Source: Mesorhizobium sp. YM1C-6-2 | GTDB lineage: Bacteria; Pseudomonadota; Alphaproteobacteria; Rhizobiales; Rhizobiaceae | Direction: 5' to 3' | Assembly (NCBI RefSeq): GCF_003666685.1 | Contig: NZ_RCIZ01000002.1 | Location: forward strand, 330,501 to 394,500 | Length of the DNA: 64,000 nt | Position numbers and translations under genes: made by a program | Notes under the pieces: generated by a model | Told to the model about the DNA's origin: nothing | The model's database searches: none | What the model saw: the letters and a program-made list of their open reading frames with translations, nothing else | In this document: piece by piece, positions 21,633 to 32,022 of the stretch | How the letters are laid out: every line of letters starts with the position of its first letter | Numbering within the stretch: the first letter of the stretch is position 1

Positions 21633-22559
21633 GTGACGCAACTCCCCATCCACACGCCCTATGACGGTTCGTCGAAGCTTTTTCAGATCGGGCTGAAGCA
21701 GCTCGACCTGACGACCTGGATCGAGATCGACGAGACCTTCGATTTCCAGCTTGCTGAAAAGCGGCGCATCTACGCCGCGCATGCGCGTGACGTCTTCGTT
21801 GCCGAGCCCGGCACCGAAGAGGCGCAGGCCGAGGTGCTGGCTCTGCTGACCGAGCATCTGCCGACGCGGTTTCCGGAACGCTACCGGCAGGACGGTAACA
21901 GGCTGATCGTTGCCGGCCAGCCGGAACTCGACGGGCTTGAGGCACAGGAGCTGCCACCGCTCCAGCAGGCATCGCTGCTCGTGCAGGAAGACCTGATCCT
22001 GATGCGGCGCGGCGAGGAGAGCTGGCGACTCGCCGCCGGCGCGCTCTGCTTCCCGTCCTCGTGGCGGCTGACGGAAAAATTCGGCAAGGCCATGTCTGAA
22101 ATCCATGTCCCGGTGCCGGGATTCGGACCGGGCACGCGCAATGCCGGGCTGATCGACCGCATGTTCGGCAGACTGCAGATCGCGCAGCCGGTGGAGCGCT
22201 TCAACTGGTCGATCCAGGCAGGCGACGCGCTCTATCACCCGCTGTCGAACGACGAGCGCATCGACCGCGCCACCGGCCGGCCGGTCCGCTTTCCCGATGT
22301 CGAGGCCGCCGCCCGCGCCTTCATCCGCGTCGAGCGGCAGACGCTTCGGAAGCTGCCTGTCTCGGGCGACATCCTGTTCACCATTCGCATCCATCTCGAT
22401 CCGATGGGACTGCTGAAGAGCCGGCCGGACCGCGCAACGCTGGCGGCCTCATTCGCCGAACAGCTTCTCGCCCTCGACGGCGAGCAGCTCGACTACAAGG
22501 GCCTCACCGCCGACCGCGACAGGCTGGTGGAGGCGCTGCGGGGGATCGCGGCGGCTTAG
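21633..22559 (+). CDS. DUF3445 family, heme-dependent oxidative demethylase-like protein
   Basis: 308 aa from GTG 21633. It matches the DUF3445/HDOD family: TPYDGSSKLFQIGL at the start, DLILMRRGEESWRLAAGALCFPSSW in the middle (the hallmark segment), and HVPVPGF. Characterised members include the dimethylamine monooxygenase subunit. No partner subunits are nearby, so the substrate is unknown. A 63-base gap separates it from pabC, with a weak ribosome site. Confidence 0.85.
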   Translation: MTQLPIHTPYDGSSKLFQIGLKQLDLTTWIEIDETFDFQLAEKRRIYAAHARDVFVAEPGTEEAQAEVLALLTEHLPTRFPERYRQDGNRLIVAGQPELDGLEAQELPPLQQASLLVQEDLILMRRGEESWRLAAGALCFPSSWRLTEKFGKAMSEIHVPVPGFGPGTRNAGLIDRMFGRLQIAQPVERFNWSIQAGDALYHPLSNDERIDRATGRPVRFPDVEAAARAFIRVERQTLRKLPVSGDILFTIRIHLDPMGLLKSRPDRATLAASFAEQLLALDGEQLDYKGLTADRDRLVEALRGIAAA

Positions 22560-22578: not shown

Positions 22579-23454
22579 TCAATTCAGCGCGTGCTCGACA
22601 TGCTTCAGCTTGTCGGGGTTGCGCATGACGTAGATGCCGAAGATCTTGCCGTCACGGATGTCGAGGGCAGTCGTCTGCAGCGTGTCGTCGGCCTCCATCG
22701 TCACGAAGCCCGGCAGGCCGTTGATGACGGCGAAACGCAGGAAGCGCGAGCCGTTCCTTGCAAAGAACTGCGCCAGCGCGGTGTGGAACTTCATCACCTC
22801 GTCGAGGCCGAGCATCGGCTTCATCGTGGCGGGTTTCTTGCCGCCGCCGTCGGTGTGCATCGAGACATCGGCCGCGAGCAACCCGGCGAGGGCCGTCATG
22901 TCGCCGCTGCGCGAGGCGGTGAAGAAGGCCTCGGCGATCTCGATCCCCTTTTCCCTGGGCAGGTCGAAGCGGGGCCGGTCGGCCCGTACGTGGCTGCGCG
23001 CGCGGGCCGCAAGCTGCCGGGTGGCGGCAGGGTCGCGGCCGATCGTCGTGGCGACCTCCTCGAAAGCGACGCCGAACACGTCGTGCAGGATGAAGGCGGC
23101 GCGTTCCAGCGGCGAGAGCCGTTCGAGCGCCATCATCAGCGGCAGCGTGACGTCGTCGGTCTCGTCCTCGCCGGATTCGACCACCGGCTCGGGCAGCCAT
23201 TCGCCCGGATAGACCTCGCGACGACGGCGCGCGGATTTCAGATGGTCGAGGCAAAGACGCGTGACGGTGCGGCGCAGGAAACTTTCGGGCTGCCGCACCG
23301 CCGAGCGGTCGGTCGCCATCCAGCGCAGGAATGCGTCCTGGACGACGTCCTCCGCGTCGGCGACCGAACCCAGCATGCGATAGGCGATCCGCGCGAGCTT
23401 CGGACGCAATGGATCGAAGACCGATGCCGGGTCCGGCGCCGACGGGGTCGCCAT
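22579..23454 (-). CDS. ECF41-family RNA polymerase sigma factor with SnoaL-like C-terminal domain
   Basis: 291 aa. Sigma region 2 (RIAYRMLGSVADAEDVVQDAFLRW, shortened) and region 4 (LSPLERAAFILHDVFGVAFEE) occupy residues 10-165. A NTF2/SnoaL-like C-terminal extension carries the DGGGK and NPDKL motifs diagnostic of ECF41, which modulate its activity in place of an anti-sigma factor. It is coupled to the upstream carboxymuconolactone decarboxylase-like gene (TGATG; a GTG at 23457 is an alternative start). The operon is preceded by a promoter of the ECF41 type, implying autoregulation. Confidence 0.93.
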   Translation of the reverse strand: MATPSAPDPASVFDPLRPKLARIAYRMLGSVADAEDVVQDAFLRWMATDRSAVRQPESFLRRTVTRLCLDHLKSARRRREVYPGEWLPEPVVESGEDETDDVTLPLMMALERLSPLERAAFILHDVFGVAFEEVATTIGRDPAATRQLAARARSHVRADRPRFDLPREKGIEIAEAFFTASRSGDMTALAGLLAADVSMHTDGGGKKPATMKPMLGLDEVMKFHTALAQFFARNGSRFLRFAVINGLPGFVTMEADDTLQTTALDIRDGKIFGIYVMRNPDKLKHVEHALN

Positions 23455-23912
23455 CACGCGGCCTTGCGCTGCTGCGAGATGGGCGGCACGTGAAAGCCGA
23501 CGCCGATGCGGTTGAAACTGTTGATCACGCCGACCATAAGGGTAAGCGCAACCTGCTCCTCCTCGCTGAACTGGGCCTGCACGGCTTCGTAGACATCGTC
23601 CGGCGCGCCCTTTTCGGACAGCCGCGTCAGCGTCTCGGTCCAGGCGAGCGCCGCCTTCTCGCGCTCGTTGTAGAGCGTCGTCTCGCGCCAGGCCGAGAGC
23701 ATCAGTACGCGCTCCTCGGTCTCGCCTGCCTGGCGCGCTTCCTTGGCGTGCATGTCGAGGCAGACGCCGCAGCCGTTGATCTGCGACGCGCGGATCTCGA
23801 CCAGCCTCATCAGGCTTTCTTCCAGGCCGTAGCCCTTGACGGTCTTGCCGAGGTCGATCAGCGGCTTCACCAGGCCGTAGTGCGTCACATAGGGGTTCAT
23901 TCTAGCAGTCAT
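23454..23912 (-). CDS. Carboxymuconolactone decarboxylase / AhpD-like protein
   Basis: 152 aa. It contains ASQINGCGVCLDMHAKEAR, the CxxC...H site of AhpD-type alkylhydroperoxidases, so a peroxidase or thiol-disulfide role is more likely than decarboxylation. This family is the standard partner of ECF41 sigma factors. It is the first gene of the operon, and its stop overlaps the sigma factor start. The ribosome site GGAAG lies upstream of ATG 23912. Confidence 0.92.
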   Translation of the reverse strand: MTARMNPYVTHYGLVKPLIDLGKTVKGYGLEESLMRLVEIRASQINGCGVCLDMHAKEARQAGETEERVLMLSAWRETTLYNEREKAALAWTETLTRLSEKGAPDDVYEAVQAQFSEEEQVALTLMVGVINSFNRIGVGFHVPPISQQRKAA

Positions 23913-26037: not shown

Positions 26038-26736
26038 TCATCTCGTGGCAAGGCCATCGAGCAGGGTGTCGAGGCCTTGCCTGAAAGCCCCGTCCCAATC
26101 GTTGTCGAGGAGAAGGCGGGAGCGCGCGATTGTCGGGTAGCGTTCGCTTTGATCTGCGAGGCGCTGCTGGGCGGCGGTCCTCTCGTCGTCCGAGACGCCG
26201 AAACCCGCCCGGGTGACGGTGGCGCCTATCACATAGTTCCAGAGCGACCATAGCGCGACGTTCAGATCGGCGTCCGCCACACCGGCCCCGGACAAGGTTC
26301 TGCTCAGCAGTTCCAGGCGGCCGAGGATGTTCGGGCCGAGCGTCCGGCGCGGCAACAGCAATGCCGACCAGGGATGGCGCAGCATGCCGGCGCGCCAGTC
26401 TTCGAGCATGTGAACGACGTCCTCGTGCCAGGCCTGGGGCCCGGCCGTCCGCGACGGTCCGCGATATTCGAGCACCGAGTCGAGCGCCAGGTCCAGGACA
26501 TCCTCCTTGTTGTCGACGTGCCAGTAAAGGCTCATCACCCCCGAGCCGAGGCGGTCGGCCAGCCGACGCATCGTCAACCCCTCGAGCCCTTGGGCGTCCA
26601 GCAGTTCGACCGCTGTCGCCACGATGCGCTCCAGGGAAAGCGGCGGCTCCTGACCGGATCGAACCGATTTGGCCCTGCCTCGAACCGGTTTGTCACGAAC
26701 CGGTTTGTCTGGGGCGCTGCTATGTTTGCCTGCCAT
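26038..26736 (-). CDS. TetR/AcrR-family transcriptional regulator
   Basis: 232 aa. A basic N-terminal extension (KPVRDKPVRGRAKSVRSG) precedes the TetR helix-turn-helix at about residues 35-80 (LTMRRLADRLGSGVMSLYWHV). The C-terminal ligand domain resembles the TetR_C type (EDWRAGMLRHPWSALLLPRR). It is transcribed divergently from the RidA-like gene, with two dyad sites between them, so it likely represses itself and ridA. The extension is encoded by short DNA repeats. Ligand unknown. Confidence 0.88.
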   Translation of the reverse strand: MAGKHSSAPDKPVRDKPVRGRAKSVRSGQEPPLSLERIVATAVELLDAQGLEGLTMRRLADRLGSGVMSLYWHVDNKEDVLDLALDSVLEYRGPSRTAGPQAWHEDVVHMLEDWRAGMLRHPWSALLLPRRTLGPNILGRLELLSRTLSGAGVADADLNVALWSLWNYVIGATVTRAGFGVSDDERTAAQQRLADQSERYPTIARSRLLLDNDWDGAFRQGLDTLLDGLATR

Positions 26737-26807
26737 CCATGCCCTCGCTGTCAGAGCGGTCGATCTAGACCGTCAATGCGCCGAATGTCGATCCCGGTCC
26801 AGTTGAC

Positions 26808-26846
26808 TCGTACTATGTACGATGCGACTAGTAGTACATTGTACGA
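26808..26846. promoter_or_regulatory. Paired operators of the TetR/RidA divergon
   Basis: Site 1 TCGTACTATGTACGA (26808-26822) is a perfect 6-3-6 inverted repeat. Site 2 TAGTACATTGTACGA (26832-26846) differs at one arm base, with centres 24 bp apart. They are nested in a longer dyad, GACTCGTAC (26805-26813) with GTACGAGTC (26841-26849). Spacing and position fit two TetR dimers. Confidence 0.8.
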
Positions 26847-26931
26847 GTCGATCGTTATTCAGGCGGGAACGGCCAGCGTGCGGATCCCGCCCGATGCGAT
26901 CGTTCGCGTTCATCGAAGCCACGAGAAAATC

Positions 26932-27408
26932 ATGTCACTGACAATCAAGCATCCGCTCATCGGAGGACTAATCATCATGACCATGGGAATTTCCACCGCT
27001 GCGACGGCGACCGGACTGACCATCGTCAATCCGGGGAACCTTCACGATCCGTCACCGAACGGCTACAGCACTGCGGTGATCACGCCTCCCAACGCCCGGG
27101 TGGCCTACATCTCCGGGCAGGGCGGCCAGGACAGCACCGGAGCCCTGTCGCCCGACTTCGCTGTCCAGGTCGAGCAGGCCTATGCCAACTTGCGCACCGC
27201 CATCGAAGCCCTCGGCGCCAGACCGGATCAGGTCGCCAAGCTCACGATCTTCGTGGTCGATCACGATATGTCCAAGCTCGAGGTGCTGACCAGGAACGTC
27301 AAGGCTATGTTCGGCAAGTCGCTGCCGGCGCAGACTTTGGTGCCTGTTCCGAAGCTTGCAATCGACCCGATGCTCTTCGAGGTCGAAGCCATCGTCGTTC
27401 TGGAATAG
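26932..27408 (+). CDS. RidA (YjgF/YER057c/UK114) family protein, possibly exported
   Basis: 158 aa from ATG 26932, or 143 aa from ATG 26977, which has GGAGG 10 bases upstream. The RidA core is clear: YISGQGGQDSTGAL, QAYANLRTAIEALGARPDQVAKLTIFVVD, and the end VPKLAIDPMLFEVEAIVVLE. From 26932 the first 26 residues look like a signal peptide (LIGGLIIMTMGISTAATATG). Classical RidA deaminates enamine/imine intermediates in the cytosol. The usual catalytic Arg near IDPMLFEVEA is not evident (RidA has a conserved R before the E-x-E end), so it may be a non-deaminating subfamily. Divergent from tetR. Confidence 0.8.
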   Translation: MSLTIKHPLIGGLIIMTMGISTAATATGLTIVNPGNLHDPSPNGYSTAVITPPNARVAYISGQGGQDSTGALSPDFAVQVEQAYANLRTAIEALGARPDQVAKLTIFVVDHDMSKLEVLTRNVKAMFGKSLPAQTLVPVPKLAIDPMLFEVEAIVVLE

Positions 27409-27520
27409 CGCCTCCGGCCGCCCCGGGCAGGGGAATTCCGCGCTTTTTGCCTCTTTATTGTGACACCGCCTTGTGCTTTCTGCTTGGCCAGTGCGCAACA
27501 GAGACGGAGTGCTGCCCAAA

Positions 27521-28966
27521 ATGGCGGATCAGAAATGGCCGGTTCACGGCGAGATAACGGGCCCAATCGTGATGATCGGCTTCGGGTCGATCGGGCGCGG
27601 GACCCTGCCGCTGATCGAACGCCATTTCAAATTCGACAAGTCGCGCCTGATCGTCATCGATCCGAGTGACGAGAACAAGAAACTGCTCGACGAGCGCGGC
27701 ATCGCTTTCCTGCAGGAGAGCGTCACCCGCAAGAATTACAAGAAGCTCCTGACGCCGCTGCTTACCAATGGCGGCGGCCAGGGTTTCTGCGTCAACCTCT
27801 CGGTCGATACCGGCTCGGTCGATCTGATGCATCTCTGCCGCAAGCTCGGCGCGCTCTATGTCGATACCGTCGTCGAGCCCTGGCTCGGCTTCTATTTCGA
27901 CGCCAAGGCCGACAATGCCAGCCGCACCAACTACGCGCTGCGCGAGACGCTGCGTGAGGAGAAGCGCAAGCATCCGGGCGGTCCGACCGCGGTGTCCACC
28001 TGCGGCGCCAACCCCGGCATGGTCTCGTGGCTGGTCAAGCAGGCCCTCGTCAACCTCGCCACCGATCTCGGCCTGAAGTTCAAGGAGCCTACCGTCGACG
28101 ACCGCGAGGGCTGGGCGAAGCTGATGAAGAAGGCCGGCGTCAAGGGCATCCACATCGCCGAGCGCGATACCCAGCGCACCAAGAAGCCGAAGCCGCTCGA
28201 CGTGTTCTGGAACACCTGGTCGGTCGAGGGCTTCATCTCCGAAGGCCTGCAACCGGCCGAGCTCGGCTGGGGCACCCATGAGAAGTGGATGCCGAAGAAC
28301 GCCAGGAAGCAGAAGCAAGGCTGCAAGGCGGCGATCTTCCTCGAACAGCCCGGCGCCAACACCCGCGTGCGTACCTGGTGCCCGACGCCCGGCCCGCAAT
28401 ACGGCTTCCTCGTCACCCACAACGAGTCCATCTCGATTGCCGATTTCTTCACCGTGCGCGGCAAGGACGGCAAGGTGAGCTACCGGCCGACCTGCCACTA
28501 CGCCTACCATCCCTGCAACGACGCGGTGCTGTCGCTGCACGAGATGTTCGGCGCGGCGGGCAAGGCGCAGCCGGTCCACCACGTGCTCGACGAGAATGAG
28601 CTGGTCGACGGCGTCGACGAGCTCGGGGTCCTGCTCTACGGCCACAAGAAGAACGCCTACTGGTTCGGCTCGCAGCTTTCGCTGGAGGAGGCTCGCAAGC
28701 TCGCCCCCTACCAGAACGCCACCGGCCTGCAGGTGACCTCGGCGGTGCTCGCCGGCATGGTCTGGGCGCTGGAGAACCCGGAGGCCGGCATCGTCGAGGC
28801 CGACGAGACGGATTACCGCCGCTGCCTGGAAGTACAGCTTCCCTATCTCGGCCCGGTCAAGGGCTATTATACCGACTGGACGCCGTTGGAAGGCCGACCG
28901 GGCCTGTTCCCCGAGGATATCGACAAGAGCGATCCCTGGCAGTTCCGCAACGTTCTGGTGCGGTAA
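27521..28966 (+). CDS. hss: Homospermidine synthase
   Basis: 481 aa from ATG 27521 (MADQKWPVHGEI). NAD-binding start: GPIVMIGFGSIGRGTLPL. Further family features are STCGANPGMVSWLVKQAL and WGTHEKWMPKNARKQ. It converts two putrescines to sym-homospermidine, the main polyamine of many rhizobia. An upstream TTG/ATG region (27473) is in frame but separated from a good ribosome site. GGAG lies at about 27505. The gene stands alone. Confidence 0.95.
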   Translation: MADQKWPVHGEITGPIVMIGFGSIGRGTLPLIERHFKFDKSRLIVIDPSDENKKLLDERGIAFLQESVTRKNYKKLLTPLLTNGGGQGFCVNLSVDTGSVDLMHLCRKLGALYVDTVVEPWLGFYFDAKADNASRTNYALRETLREEKRKHPGGPTAVSTCGANPGMVSWLVKQALVNLATDLGLKFKEPTVDDREGWAKLMKKAGVKGIHIAERDTQRTKKPKPLDVFWNTWSVEGFISEGLQPAELGWGTHEKWMPKNARKQKQGCKAAIFLEQPGANTRVRTWCPTPGPQYGFLVTHNESISIADFFTVRGKDGKVSYRPTCHYAYHPCNDAVLSLHEMFGAAGKAQPVHHVLDENELVDGVDELGVLLYGHKKNAYWFGSQLSLEEARKLAPYQNATGLQVTSAVLAGMVWALENPEAGIVEADETDYRRCLEVQLPYLGPVKGYYTDWTPLEGRPGLFPEDIDKSDPWQFRNVLVR

Positions 28967-29775: not shown

Positions 29776-30063
29776 CTACTTGCGCAGTTCGGCTTCGATC
29801 TCGTCGAGCGCCTTGTCCTTGCCGATGCCGGTGAGGAAGGCGAGGCCCTTGATGACCGGGATGGTTATCGACGAGGAGACCGGCGTGGTCGCCACGATCA
29901 GGTCCGCGTTCTCCGCCATGCTCGGCGCCTCGGTCGCCTTGCACTGGACCGAGTTGAAGGTCAGCCCGCGCGCCTTCATCGCCTCGGTCACGGTGGCGTT
30001 GACCGCCGTCGAGGTGGCGACGCCGGTGCCGCAGGCAAAGAGTATGGTCTTCTGTCTGGCCAT
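29776..30063 (-). CDS. gatB: PTS system IIB component, galactitol type
   Basis: 95 aa. The phospho-Cys is in FACGTGVATST (about residue 10), with the lactose/galactitol IIB fold. It would carry the phosphoryl group from IIA to the incoming sugar on IIC. It is the last gene of the IIC-IIA-IIB operon, 20 bases after the IIA gene. No sugar-phosphate dehydrogenase follows, so the substrate is not fixed. Confidence 0.88.
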   Translation of the reverse strand: MARQKTILFACGTGVATSTAVNATVTEAMKARGLTFNSVQCKATEAPSMAENADLIVATTPVSSSITIPVIKGLAFLTGIGKDKALDEIEAELRK

Positions 30064-30083
30064 GCCGAGCTTTCCTTCCCTTC

Positions 30084-30539
30084 TCAGCCGAGCAAGGATC
30101 TGATCTCCTCGGCGGTCCTCGCGCTTGTGAGACCGCTGAGTGTATCCGGATCCTGGATCGCTTCCATTATCTGCTGGAGCATGTCGATCTGCTTGTTCTT
30201 GTCATCGATGGCAAGCAGGAACACCACTCCGACCGGTACCAACTCATCCGGCTCCTCCATATTGGCGAAATCGACCGGGGCCGACAGCACGCCGAGCGCG
30301 ACGCCCGGCCTGATGACGTGCTCGGGATCGGTATGCGGGATGGCGACGTTGACCGCCCGCCCGAGCGGCAAGCCCGTCGGCATCGTGGCCTCCCGCTTCA
30401 CCACCGCGTCGGCGTAGGACGACCTCACATAGCCCAGTGCCTCGAGCCTTTCGGCGAGCAGGCTTATCGCCTGCTCCGCACTCTGCGCATCGATGCCAAG
30501 CGCAAGCGCTTTGGGGTGGATATGGTCGATGAGCGCCAA
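30084..30539 (-). CDS. gatA: PTS system IIA component (EIIA fructose/Ntr/galactitol fold)
   Basis: 151 aa from TTG 30539, which lies 5 bases after a GGAGG (30549-30545). An in-frame ATG at 30572 lies in the loop of a 12-bp hairpin and is unlikely. The phospho-His is in NVAIPHTDPEHV (about residue 69). The ending SGLTSARTAEEIRSLL is typical of PTS_EIIA_2 domains. It needs EI and HPr, not encoded here. In rhizobia the nitrogen-PTS proteins could supply phosphate, which is an inference. Confidence 0.88.
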   Translation of the reverse strand: MALIDHIHPKALALGIDAQSAEQAISLLAERLEALGYVRSSYADAVVKREATMPTGLPLGRAVNVAIPHTDPEHVIRPGVALGVLSAPVDFANMEEPDELVPVGVVFLLAIDDKNKQIDMLQQIMEAIQDPDTLSGLTSARTAEEIRSLLG

Positions 30540-30558
30540 AGAGGCCTCCCCGTGTTCC

Positions 30559-30586
30559 GGAACCGGCCGCATGGGCGGCCGGTTCC
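30559..30586 (-). promoter_or_regulatory. Intercistronic 12-bp perfect hairpin between gatC and gatA
   Basis: GGAACCGGCCGC (30559-30570), 4-base loop, GCGGCCGGTTCC (30575-30586). The stem is exact and very GC-rich, with no T-run after it on the minus strand. It sits between the IIC stop and the IIA ribosome site, so it may protect the 3' end of gatC mRNA or set the ratio of membrane to soluble subunits. Confidence 0.7.
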
Positions 30587-30615
30587 CTTACTATACTATG
30601 GCTTTGCCTTTCGGC

Positions 30616-32022
30616 TCAGGCCGTACTGGCCTCCGGCTCGTCCTCGGCGCCGGCCGCCCGCTCCCAGGCCGCTGCGTTGCGGTGGTAGAGGACGAAGGTC
30701 ACCGCGATGACGACGGCGAGCAGCACGAGGCCGAAGACGGCCAGCCACTGGATCGCCTCGATGACCACGTAGGGGATCCACAGGAAGCCGTCGACCACCG
30801 AGGTGATCTCCACCGCGTTCGCCGGCAACTGGAAGCCCGATGCGACGGCGGCGCTGGTGAAGAGCGGCGCCAGCGCGTTGGCGACGTAGAAGCCGACGGC
30901 GAGCGTTATCGTTCCGACCACCACCATGCGGAAGACGTTGCCCTTGAGCAGCGGCGCAGTCATGGCGACGATGAAGGGGATGACGGCGAGGTCGGCGAAC
31001 AGGATCACGCGGTTGCCTGGCAGGACGATCGACAGCACGATGGCGATCGGCACCAGGATCAGCGACGAGGCGATAGCCGCCGGATGGCCGATCAGGATCG
31101 CCGAGTCGAGGCCGACCAGCAGCTCGCGGTCGCCGGTGCGCTTGCGCACGAATTCCTGCGCGGCGTCGGAGACGGGCAGCAGCCCTTCCATGAGGATCTT
31201 CACCATGCGCGGCAGGAGCAGCATGACCGCGGCCAGCGTCATGCCCGTGCCCAGCACCTTCGACAGCACCGTGCCGAAATCGCCGGCGTTGTAGTAGCCG
31301 ATGAGGCCGAGAACGAGGCCGATGATCAGGCCGAGCACGACCGGCTCGCCGAACACGCCGAACCGCTTCTCGATGGTCTCGGTGCTGATGTCTATGCGGT
31401 TGATGCCGGGGATGCGGTCCATCACCCAGTTGAGCACGATGGCGATCGGCAGGATCTGCGCCGAGGCGAGATGCGGTACCGAGACGCCGGGGATGCCGTA
31501 GAACTGTTGGACGGCGCGCGCCGACCAGTCGGCGAAGAGCAGCGCCAGTGCCGCGACCAGCGCGCCGACGACGAGGCCGTAGCCGAGGCTGCCGGTCGCC
31601 GCGGTCGCCAGCGAGCCGATGAAGGCGAAGTGCCAGAAATTCCACACGTCGACGTTGAGCGTGCGGGTCAGGCGGGTGAGCAGCAGCACTATGTTGACGG
31701 CGATGCCGATCGGAATGATCCACAGGCCGACCGACGAGCCGAAGGCGATCGCCGCGGCCGACGGCCAGCCGACGTCGACGATGTCGCGCTTTATGCCGGT
31801 GTTGGTGACGATCGCCTGGGCGACGTCGCCGATCGAGCCGAGCATCAGCCCGAGCACGAGATTGATGCCGATGAAGGCGACGCCGATGGTGACGGCGGCG
31901 CGGAAGGCGCGGCCGACCTTGGCGCCGAGCACGATGGCGATGATGAAGATGACGATGGGCAACAGAACCGTCGCCCCGAGCGTGTCGATGGCCGTCTTGA
32001 GGCCGGTCAGAAAGACATCCAT
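30616..32022 (-). CDS. gatC: PTS system IIC component, galactitol-type permease
   Basis: 468 aa integral membrane protein with some 12 hydrophobic segments, opening with MDVFLTGLKTAIDTLGATV and containing the family regions GLWIIPIGIAVN and LIGYYNAGDFGTVLSK. First gene of the C-A-B operon. It starts at ATG 32022 after GGAGAACTCAAGGA. By family it brings in and phosphorylates a hexitol or related sugar together with IIA and IIB. No regulator or catabolic enzyme is adjacent. Confidence 0.9.
   Translation of the reverse strand: MDVFLTGLKTAIDTLGATVLLPIVIFIIAIVLGAKVGRAFRAAVTIGVAFIGINLVLGLMLGSIGDVAQAIVTNTGIKRDIVDVGWPSAAAIAFGSSVGLWIIPIGIAVNIVLLLTRLTRTLNVDVWNFWHFAFIGSLATAATGSLGYGLVVGALVAALALLFADWSARAVQQFYGIPGVSVPHLASAQILPIAIVLNWVMDRIPGINRIDISTETIEKRFGVFGEPVVLGLIIGLVLGLIGYYNAGDFGTVLSKVLGTGMTLAAVMLLLPRMVKILMEGLLPVSDAAQEFVRKRTGDRELLVGLDSAILIGHPAAIASSLILVPIAIVLSIVLPGNRVILFADLAVIPFIVAMTAPLLKGNVFRMVVVGTITLAVGFYVANALAPLFTSAAVASGFQLPANAVEITSVVDGFLWIPYVVIEAIQWLAVFGLVLLAVVIAVTFVLYHRNAAAWERAAGAEDEPEASTA

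Follow-up and report, generated by a model that had tools for sequence, protein, structure and literature searches.

To our knowledge, Rid enzymes are internal housekeeping proteins. The imine hydrolysis carried out by RidA has been tied to one arginine, Arg105, in the sections of PMC4433059 and PMC5619798 drawn on here. Proteins without this residue make up the groups Rid4 to Rid7, with the position being variable in Rid5 and Rid6, and, as of 2015, most Rid proteins without the catalytic arginine had no assigned function (PMC4433059, same sections). An endoribonuclease of the Rid7 group has been reported since then (title in the reference list of PMC13118837), and the Arg-less protein Y3550 of Yersinia pestis has been described as Rid5/6-like (PMC7221256, accessible part). 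On the regulatory side, the closest described systems are the TetR_C_1 repressors (TetR, ActR and SimReg2), which share with the locus analyzed here a regulator with both domains, a divergent gene and two palindromic operators; the difference is that the target in the present cassette is a Rid protein.

The window, i.e. the whole 64,000-nucleotide stretch of Mesorhizobium sp. YM1C-6-2 DNA that was analyzed, carries a TetR-family gene and a Rid-fold gene (rid) as a back-to-back, divergent pair (Table 1). All elements listed in a preliminary description of this DNA (a Rid reading frame, a TetR, two palindromes, and two start codons, ATG 26932 and ATG 26977) are present in the sequence, with the divergent tetR gene lying beyond the segment, 26737 to 27408, which that description covered.

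Table 1. Features of the tetR-rid cassette (window coordinates)
Feature	Position	Strand	Basis
tetR, putative dedicated repressor, 232 aa	26038..26736	-	TetR_N + TetR_C_1 (Pfam); no Cys
-35-like TTGACT, shares one base with operator 1; promoter inferred	26803..26808	+	sequence; 71/80 upstream regions
Candidate operator 1, TCGTACTATGTACGA, perfect palindrome	26808..26822	.	palindrome and operator-pair searches
Candidate operator 2, TAGTACATTGTACGA, one mismatch	26832..26846	.	palindrome and operator-pair searches
Weak initiation region GAGAAAATC, conserved, before first start	26923..26931	+	entropy; SD energy -3.0
rid, long form, 158 aa, predicted exported	26932..27408	+	Pfam; coding signature of leader
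Predicted Sec signal peptide, residues 1-26, predicted cleavage after A24-T25-A26	26932..27009	+	core IGGLIIMTMGI; Ala(-1)
GGAGG, putative Shine-Dalgarno for internal start, 10 nt 5' of ATG	26962..26966	+	duplex -9.5 kcal/mol
rid, short form, 143 aa, predicted cytosolic	26977..27408	+	internal ATG 81/81; start of leaderless clade
Gln134 codon, replacing RidA Arg105	27331..27333	+	PAQT position Gln in 78/78 rows

Relatives were taken from a contig scan across genomes. The best 80 of 214 are 77 to 85% identical; the ranking favours full-length matches, so that leaders no longer in frame may be missing from this set. Most of these 80 come from Rhizobiales, with outliers such as Inquilinus and Dongia. 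A divergent tetR gene, its product 64 to 83% identical, adjoins rid in 78 of the 80 loci; the two others are L051, truncated by the end of its contig, and L043, where none was found. The distances among the TetR proteins correlate with those among the Rid proteins (Mantel r 0.58, with 0.31 the highest value among 999 permutations; n = 77, that is, 76 loci and the window, as L051 has no TetR). The proposal of a dedicated TetR is thereby supported, the pair being conserved over many genera. Start codons were counted in the 80 loci and the window, L043, L071 and L081 included; the alignment has 78 rows (77 loci and the window), since no ATG, GTG or TTG start was found in these three.

When mechanically called ORFs of at least 100 aa were clustered around the 80 loci and the window, no flanking cluster occurred in more than 8 of the 81 loci, and a conserved operon partner was therefore rejected. 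Within the window, positions 22579 to 23912 carry a gene for an ECF sigma factor (Sigma70_r2/r4_2) next to a CMD-family gene of the same orientation, an arrangement which we take to be that of ECF41-type loci. Both gene types, CMD and ECF sigma, also follow the rid gene of L175, whose product was labelled exported; a functional link to rid was not adopted, as the flank clustering shows no widely shared neighbour. Also in the window are a gene resembling the alpha subunit of haem-dependent oxidative N-demethylase (21633 to 22559; PF11927, E 3e-60) and, on the minus strand, PTS IIB, IIA and EIIC-GAT genes in a row (29776 to 32022).

Counting the own genome each time, genomes with a match number 35 of 247 in the family and 5 of 385 in the class (both at E<=1e-25), 9 of 297 in the order (E<=1e-20) and 32 of 398 in the phylum, where the limit was relaxed to E<=1e-12. 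This patchy distribution, together with the high identity across families, suggests that the cassette has spread horizontally. Thirty of the 35 family genomes have a signal-like leader, as judged by reading the N-termini, and 28 of these 30 have the TetR; the five leaderless ones have no TetR within the DNA stretch examined around each. WYL-type regulators adjoin rid instead in the leaderless L176 and L177 and in the leader-bearing L181, and the near neighbours of annotated plasmid relatives are TetR, YafY, an HTH protein with DJ-1, GlxA, MarR with a cupin, and LacI. Thus, a regulator is often but not always found near rid, and its type changes. Another upstream element, around TTGGCACCGATT, is common to all members of a leaderless clade (L106, L142, L170, L171 and L173) and is possibly the site of its WYL-type regulator.

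The Rid reading frame matches Pfam Ribonuc_L-PSP (PF01042) with an E value of 7e-18 and 65.2 bits against a cut-off of 27.3, and the 50 Foldseek matches listed are all of the Rid/YjgF type (E 1.2e-8 to 1.3e-7; TM about 0.5-0.7), the query being a modest model (mean pLDDT 66.3) that was used for the fold only. Domain score and fold together place the protein in the Rid superfamily (PF01042). Counting this one, Ribonuc_L-PSP matches number 17 in the genome, so that a Rid protein in itself is nothing unusual in this organism. The active site is another matter. The preliminary description had framed the protein as an enamine detoxifier of the RidA kind, and this framing is not supported: the equivalent of Arg105 is Gln134, which aligns with the Arg of the PAR motif in solved Rid proteins and is Gln in all 78 rows (PAQT). 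Because the catalytic Arg is replaced by an invariant Gln, classical enamine deamination would not be expected. The score against TIGR00004 is also below its cut-off (36.6 versus 106.25 bits). The equivalents of two further RidA residues, Tyr17 and Glu120, are retained as Y45 and E152 and are invariant in 35 rows. The product therefore appears to be a Rid protein, not a RidA deaminase.

Compared with the RidA/YjgF/UK114 imine deaminases, the cassette protein has the HMM family, the Foldseek fold and the Tyr17 and Glu120 equivalents (numbering of PMC4433059, accessible part) in common, and it differs in the Gln for Arg105, the predicted export signal and the dedicated TetR. Its replaced Arg and retained Glu would be consistent with Rid5 or Rid6 (PMC4433059); the portions of PMC4433059 and PMC7221256 drawn on here do not mention an export signal for those groups, whereas the cassette protein has a predicted one. 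Among solved sequences, 5v4f comes closest; its title names YyfB of Yersinia pestis. Relatives from outside the class, 42 to 50% identical, carry PACT or PTCT in place of PAQT. Since Rid7C, another Arg-less type, has been reported as an endoribonuclease (title in the reference list of PMC13118837), an RNase role would be conceivable for the cassette protein.

The TetR protein exceeds the Pfam cut-offs for the TetR_N helix-turn-helix (HTH; 35.6 versus 24 bits) and for TetR_C_1 (44.5 versus 21 bits), and its nearest solved sequences are 5ojx, SimReg2, 2hxo and ActR. These two domains, along with palindromic candidate operators between divergent genes, would assign it to the TetR_C_1 group. Conservation of its C-terminal part is close to that of the HTH (0.88-0.90 versus 0.90), as would be expected if the homologues share one ligand. 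The mean pLDDT of the predicted model is 73.5. The HOCl sensors RcrR and NemR are likewise TetR-family proteins and, according to the accessible part of PMC9600549, sense through Cys, whereas the window TetR has none. Only 16 of 77 homologues have any Cys, and no alignment column has one in more than 3 of the 77. With no Cys in the window protein and none conserved, thiol- or HOCl-based redox sensing by this regulator is unsupported and seems unlikely.

The motif TCGTACNNNGTACGA occurs twice between tetR and rid, once perfectly and once with a mismatch, the starts being 24 bp apart. The claim of two good operators is borne out by the homologues: of 80 homologous upstream regions of 200 nt (79 loci and the window, with L051, at a contig end, left out), 72 contain such a pair (at most 2 mismatches per site) versus a mean of 0.0 paired regions in 20 first-order Markov resamplings, and the spacing is 24 or 25 bp in 68 of the 72 two-site regions. 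TTGACT stands immediately 5' of a half site in 71 of the 80 regions, whereas a mirror-image -35 on the tetR side is present in just 30. Generic sigma-70 promoter and terminator consensus scans of positions 26600 to 27560 found nothing. No site with up to 2 mismatches was found in the 64-kb window beyond these two. A scan of the 5.5-Mb genome, limited to 1 mismatch at most, gave no second pair and one further single place (1 mismatch), with 2 places for the reversed pattern as control; a wider TetR regulon in this genome is thus unsupported, the additional place being at control level. Between tetR and the operators, at 26784 to 26792, is AATGTCGAT, of which 62 of 80 upstream regions retain TGTCGAT. 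Judging from this architecture and from what is known of the family, the private TetR very probably represses both genes and would be released by a small molecule.

The N-terminus of the long form was previously noted as signal-like, and the comparison of homologues over many genera strengthens this observation. In the leader consensus, MSRAIKHLLIGGLIIMTMGVPTATTA^NE, a charged start precedes a hydrophobic core, which is followed by a c-region of small residues; the window leader reads MSLTIKHPLIGGLIIMTMGISTAATA^TG. Ala occupies the predicted -1 position in 76 of the 76 rows having a residue there, and the best 11-mer has a mean hydropathy of 2.15 in the window, where the core is IGGLIIMTMGI, and 1.63 to 2.77 across the 78 rows. 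The composition (charged start, hydrophobic core, small -1 residue) is that of a Sec signal, although hydropathy overlaps that of leaderless relatives and fails on its own to split the groups (up to 2.03 in leaderless L173, just 1.6 in leader-bearing L169). The hydrophobic stretch is strong, and an uncleaved membrane anchor, holding the Rid domain on the outer face of the inner membrane, might be considered. The short h-region and the c-region that follows it, with its invariant Ala, are as for cleavage, and we regard such an anchor as highly improbable.

Several features suggest that the 45-nt leader is read as protein. Non-majority letters number 69/54/123 at codon positions 1, 2 and 3. The leader is 15 codons long in 68 of 78 rows, 14 in 8, 13 in 1 and 17 in 1, so that length changes come in whole codons. 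The tblastn alignments, which do not require the leader for a match, extend into it in frame at all 80 loci (query start <=9), and the diverged L144, L172 and L175 keep a hydrophobic leader of different sequence. The pN/pS ratio is 0.45 over codons 2-15, compared with 0.16-0.22 for the mature portion. Constraint is weak over codons 2-9, the first half of the leader (0.64), and the low value over codons 10-15 (0.24) may in part be due to the Shine-Dalgarno (SD) bases there. Upstream of the first start, ungapped entropy is 1.2-1.8 bits at -30 to -13 and 0.1-0.85 bits over the last nine bases. The initiation region GAGAAAATC-ATG-TCACG is tandemly duplicated, in frame, immediately ahead of the rid start in L024 and L026, and the duplication is imperfect in L027. 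The leader thus looks translated, and an exported form of Rid is probably made.

Every one of the 81 loci has the internal ATG, but the first start varies, being ATG in 76, GTG in 2 and none of ATG, GTG or TTG in 3. The SD duplex preceding the internal ATG has a median energy of -10.0 kcal/mol (-9.5 in the window) versus a median of -2.9 at the first start (-3.0 in the window); for comparison, 51 TetR starts give -4.0, and three further conserved Met codons give -2.7, -3.5 and +0.4. The internal SD is the stronger one in 74 of 78 rows, and GGAGG occurs 6-13 nt 5' of the internal ATG in 71 of 78. An energy of -9 or below is found in 70 of 78 rows versus 20-22% after synonymous recoding, although these rows are related by descent and do not represent 70 independent events. 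The GGA codon is the main one (52/78) at one unrelated Gly column of rid as well. The distance of 10 nt between GGAGG and ATG in the window is longer than ideal. A tree of the window and 51 loci of our choosing places a five-member leaderless clade (support 100/99) within a fork supported at 98/86, the other rows of which bear leaders; the precise placement of the clade is less certain (84/78), and the leader label takes 4 changes on this tree. The clade begins at an ATG-AC aligned with the internal codon, with GGAG just 5' of it in 5 of 5 members.

Three accounts of the two start codons have to be weighed. If only 26932 were used, all of the product would be periplasmic and the internal GGAGG would be a pause site or reflect the codon bias of signals. 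The coding signature of the leader and Ala(-1) agree with this, as do the diverged L144 (with no internal Met in its leader) and L175 (with no internal SD), which have ordinary-looking signals and an SD-like site before the first start, and SD-like sites within a signal could pause ribosomes rather than initiate. However, the internal ATG persists even where the first start has been lost, and its SD is far stronger than those of the other Met codons tested and than synonymous recoding produces. Sole use of the first start is, in our judgement, unlikely. If only 26977 were used, the upstream 45 nt would be leader RNA. The strongest SD tested at the locus precedes this codon, three loci lack the first start, the leaderless clade starts at the matching ATG, and codons 2-9 are weakly constrained, all of which fits. 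A leader RNA does not readily account for a third-position excess, for a frame maintained through codon-sized length changes, for a hydrophobic translation leading into a c-region with Ala(-1) in every row, or for the conserved bases before the first start. A structured leader RNA is likewise unsupported, as four folds did not go beyond their shuffles (z -0.20, -0.16, +1.49 and +1.96). A purely cytosolic product is thus unlikely.

The evidence points to selection on both starts. The preliminary description had left a choice between an exported product from 26932 and a cytosolic one from 26977; both codons exist, but the either/or is probably wrong, as both starts are apparently selected. Translation from 26977 would therefore not, by itself, disprove export from 26932. 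That both forms are made has, we estimate, about an even chance.

Combining these observations, we envisage a self-contained, ligand-inducible two-gene cassette. TetR would bind both palindromes, thereby repressing tetR and rid, and leave the DNA upon binding a small molecule. The rid mRNA would then be read from two starts, the weak first start giving a Sec-signal form destined for the periplasm and the strong internal start giving a cytosolic form, both of which would fold as Rid proteins. With Gln in place of the Arg by which RidA grips the carboxylate, the enzyme is probably directed at another reactive compound, for which the inducer itself or its product would be plausible. The chances for this scheme as a whole, that is, one gene giving exported and cytosolic Rid forms upon induction by a TetR ligand, appear evenly balanced. 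The most natural reading of such a pair, we infer, would be that its periplasmic and cytosolic members guard against one reactive compound. More tentatively, and at somewhat less than an even chance, one gene may supply one Rid-fold enzyme to two compartments by alternative starts under a private ligand-sensing TetR; the cassette would then be a portable system protecting periplasm and cytosol alike against a reactive compound that soil- and plant-associated bacteria encounter, and its Gln-type Rid active site would have new chemistry.

All parts of the cassette belong to known families. Among the open-licence literature matches listed, there was no description of an exported Rid protein or of a TetR-Rid cassette, nor did any of the listed papers on internal starts combined with signal sequences treat this case; the suggestion of an unrecognised ligand-responsive system is plausible to this extent. 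Exported and non-exported Rid from one gene would be unusual, Rid enzymes being internal housekeeping proteins. Since work on Rid proteins concerns metabolite damage inside cells, the existence of an exported form would point to a target beyond the cytoplasm. Use of both starts would make the cassette a conserved example of dual targeting by isoforms in bacteria. Finally, its private ligand sensor makes the function of an Arg-less Rid protein approachable: once the inducer of TetR is found, the substrate class may follow.
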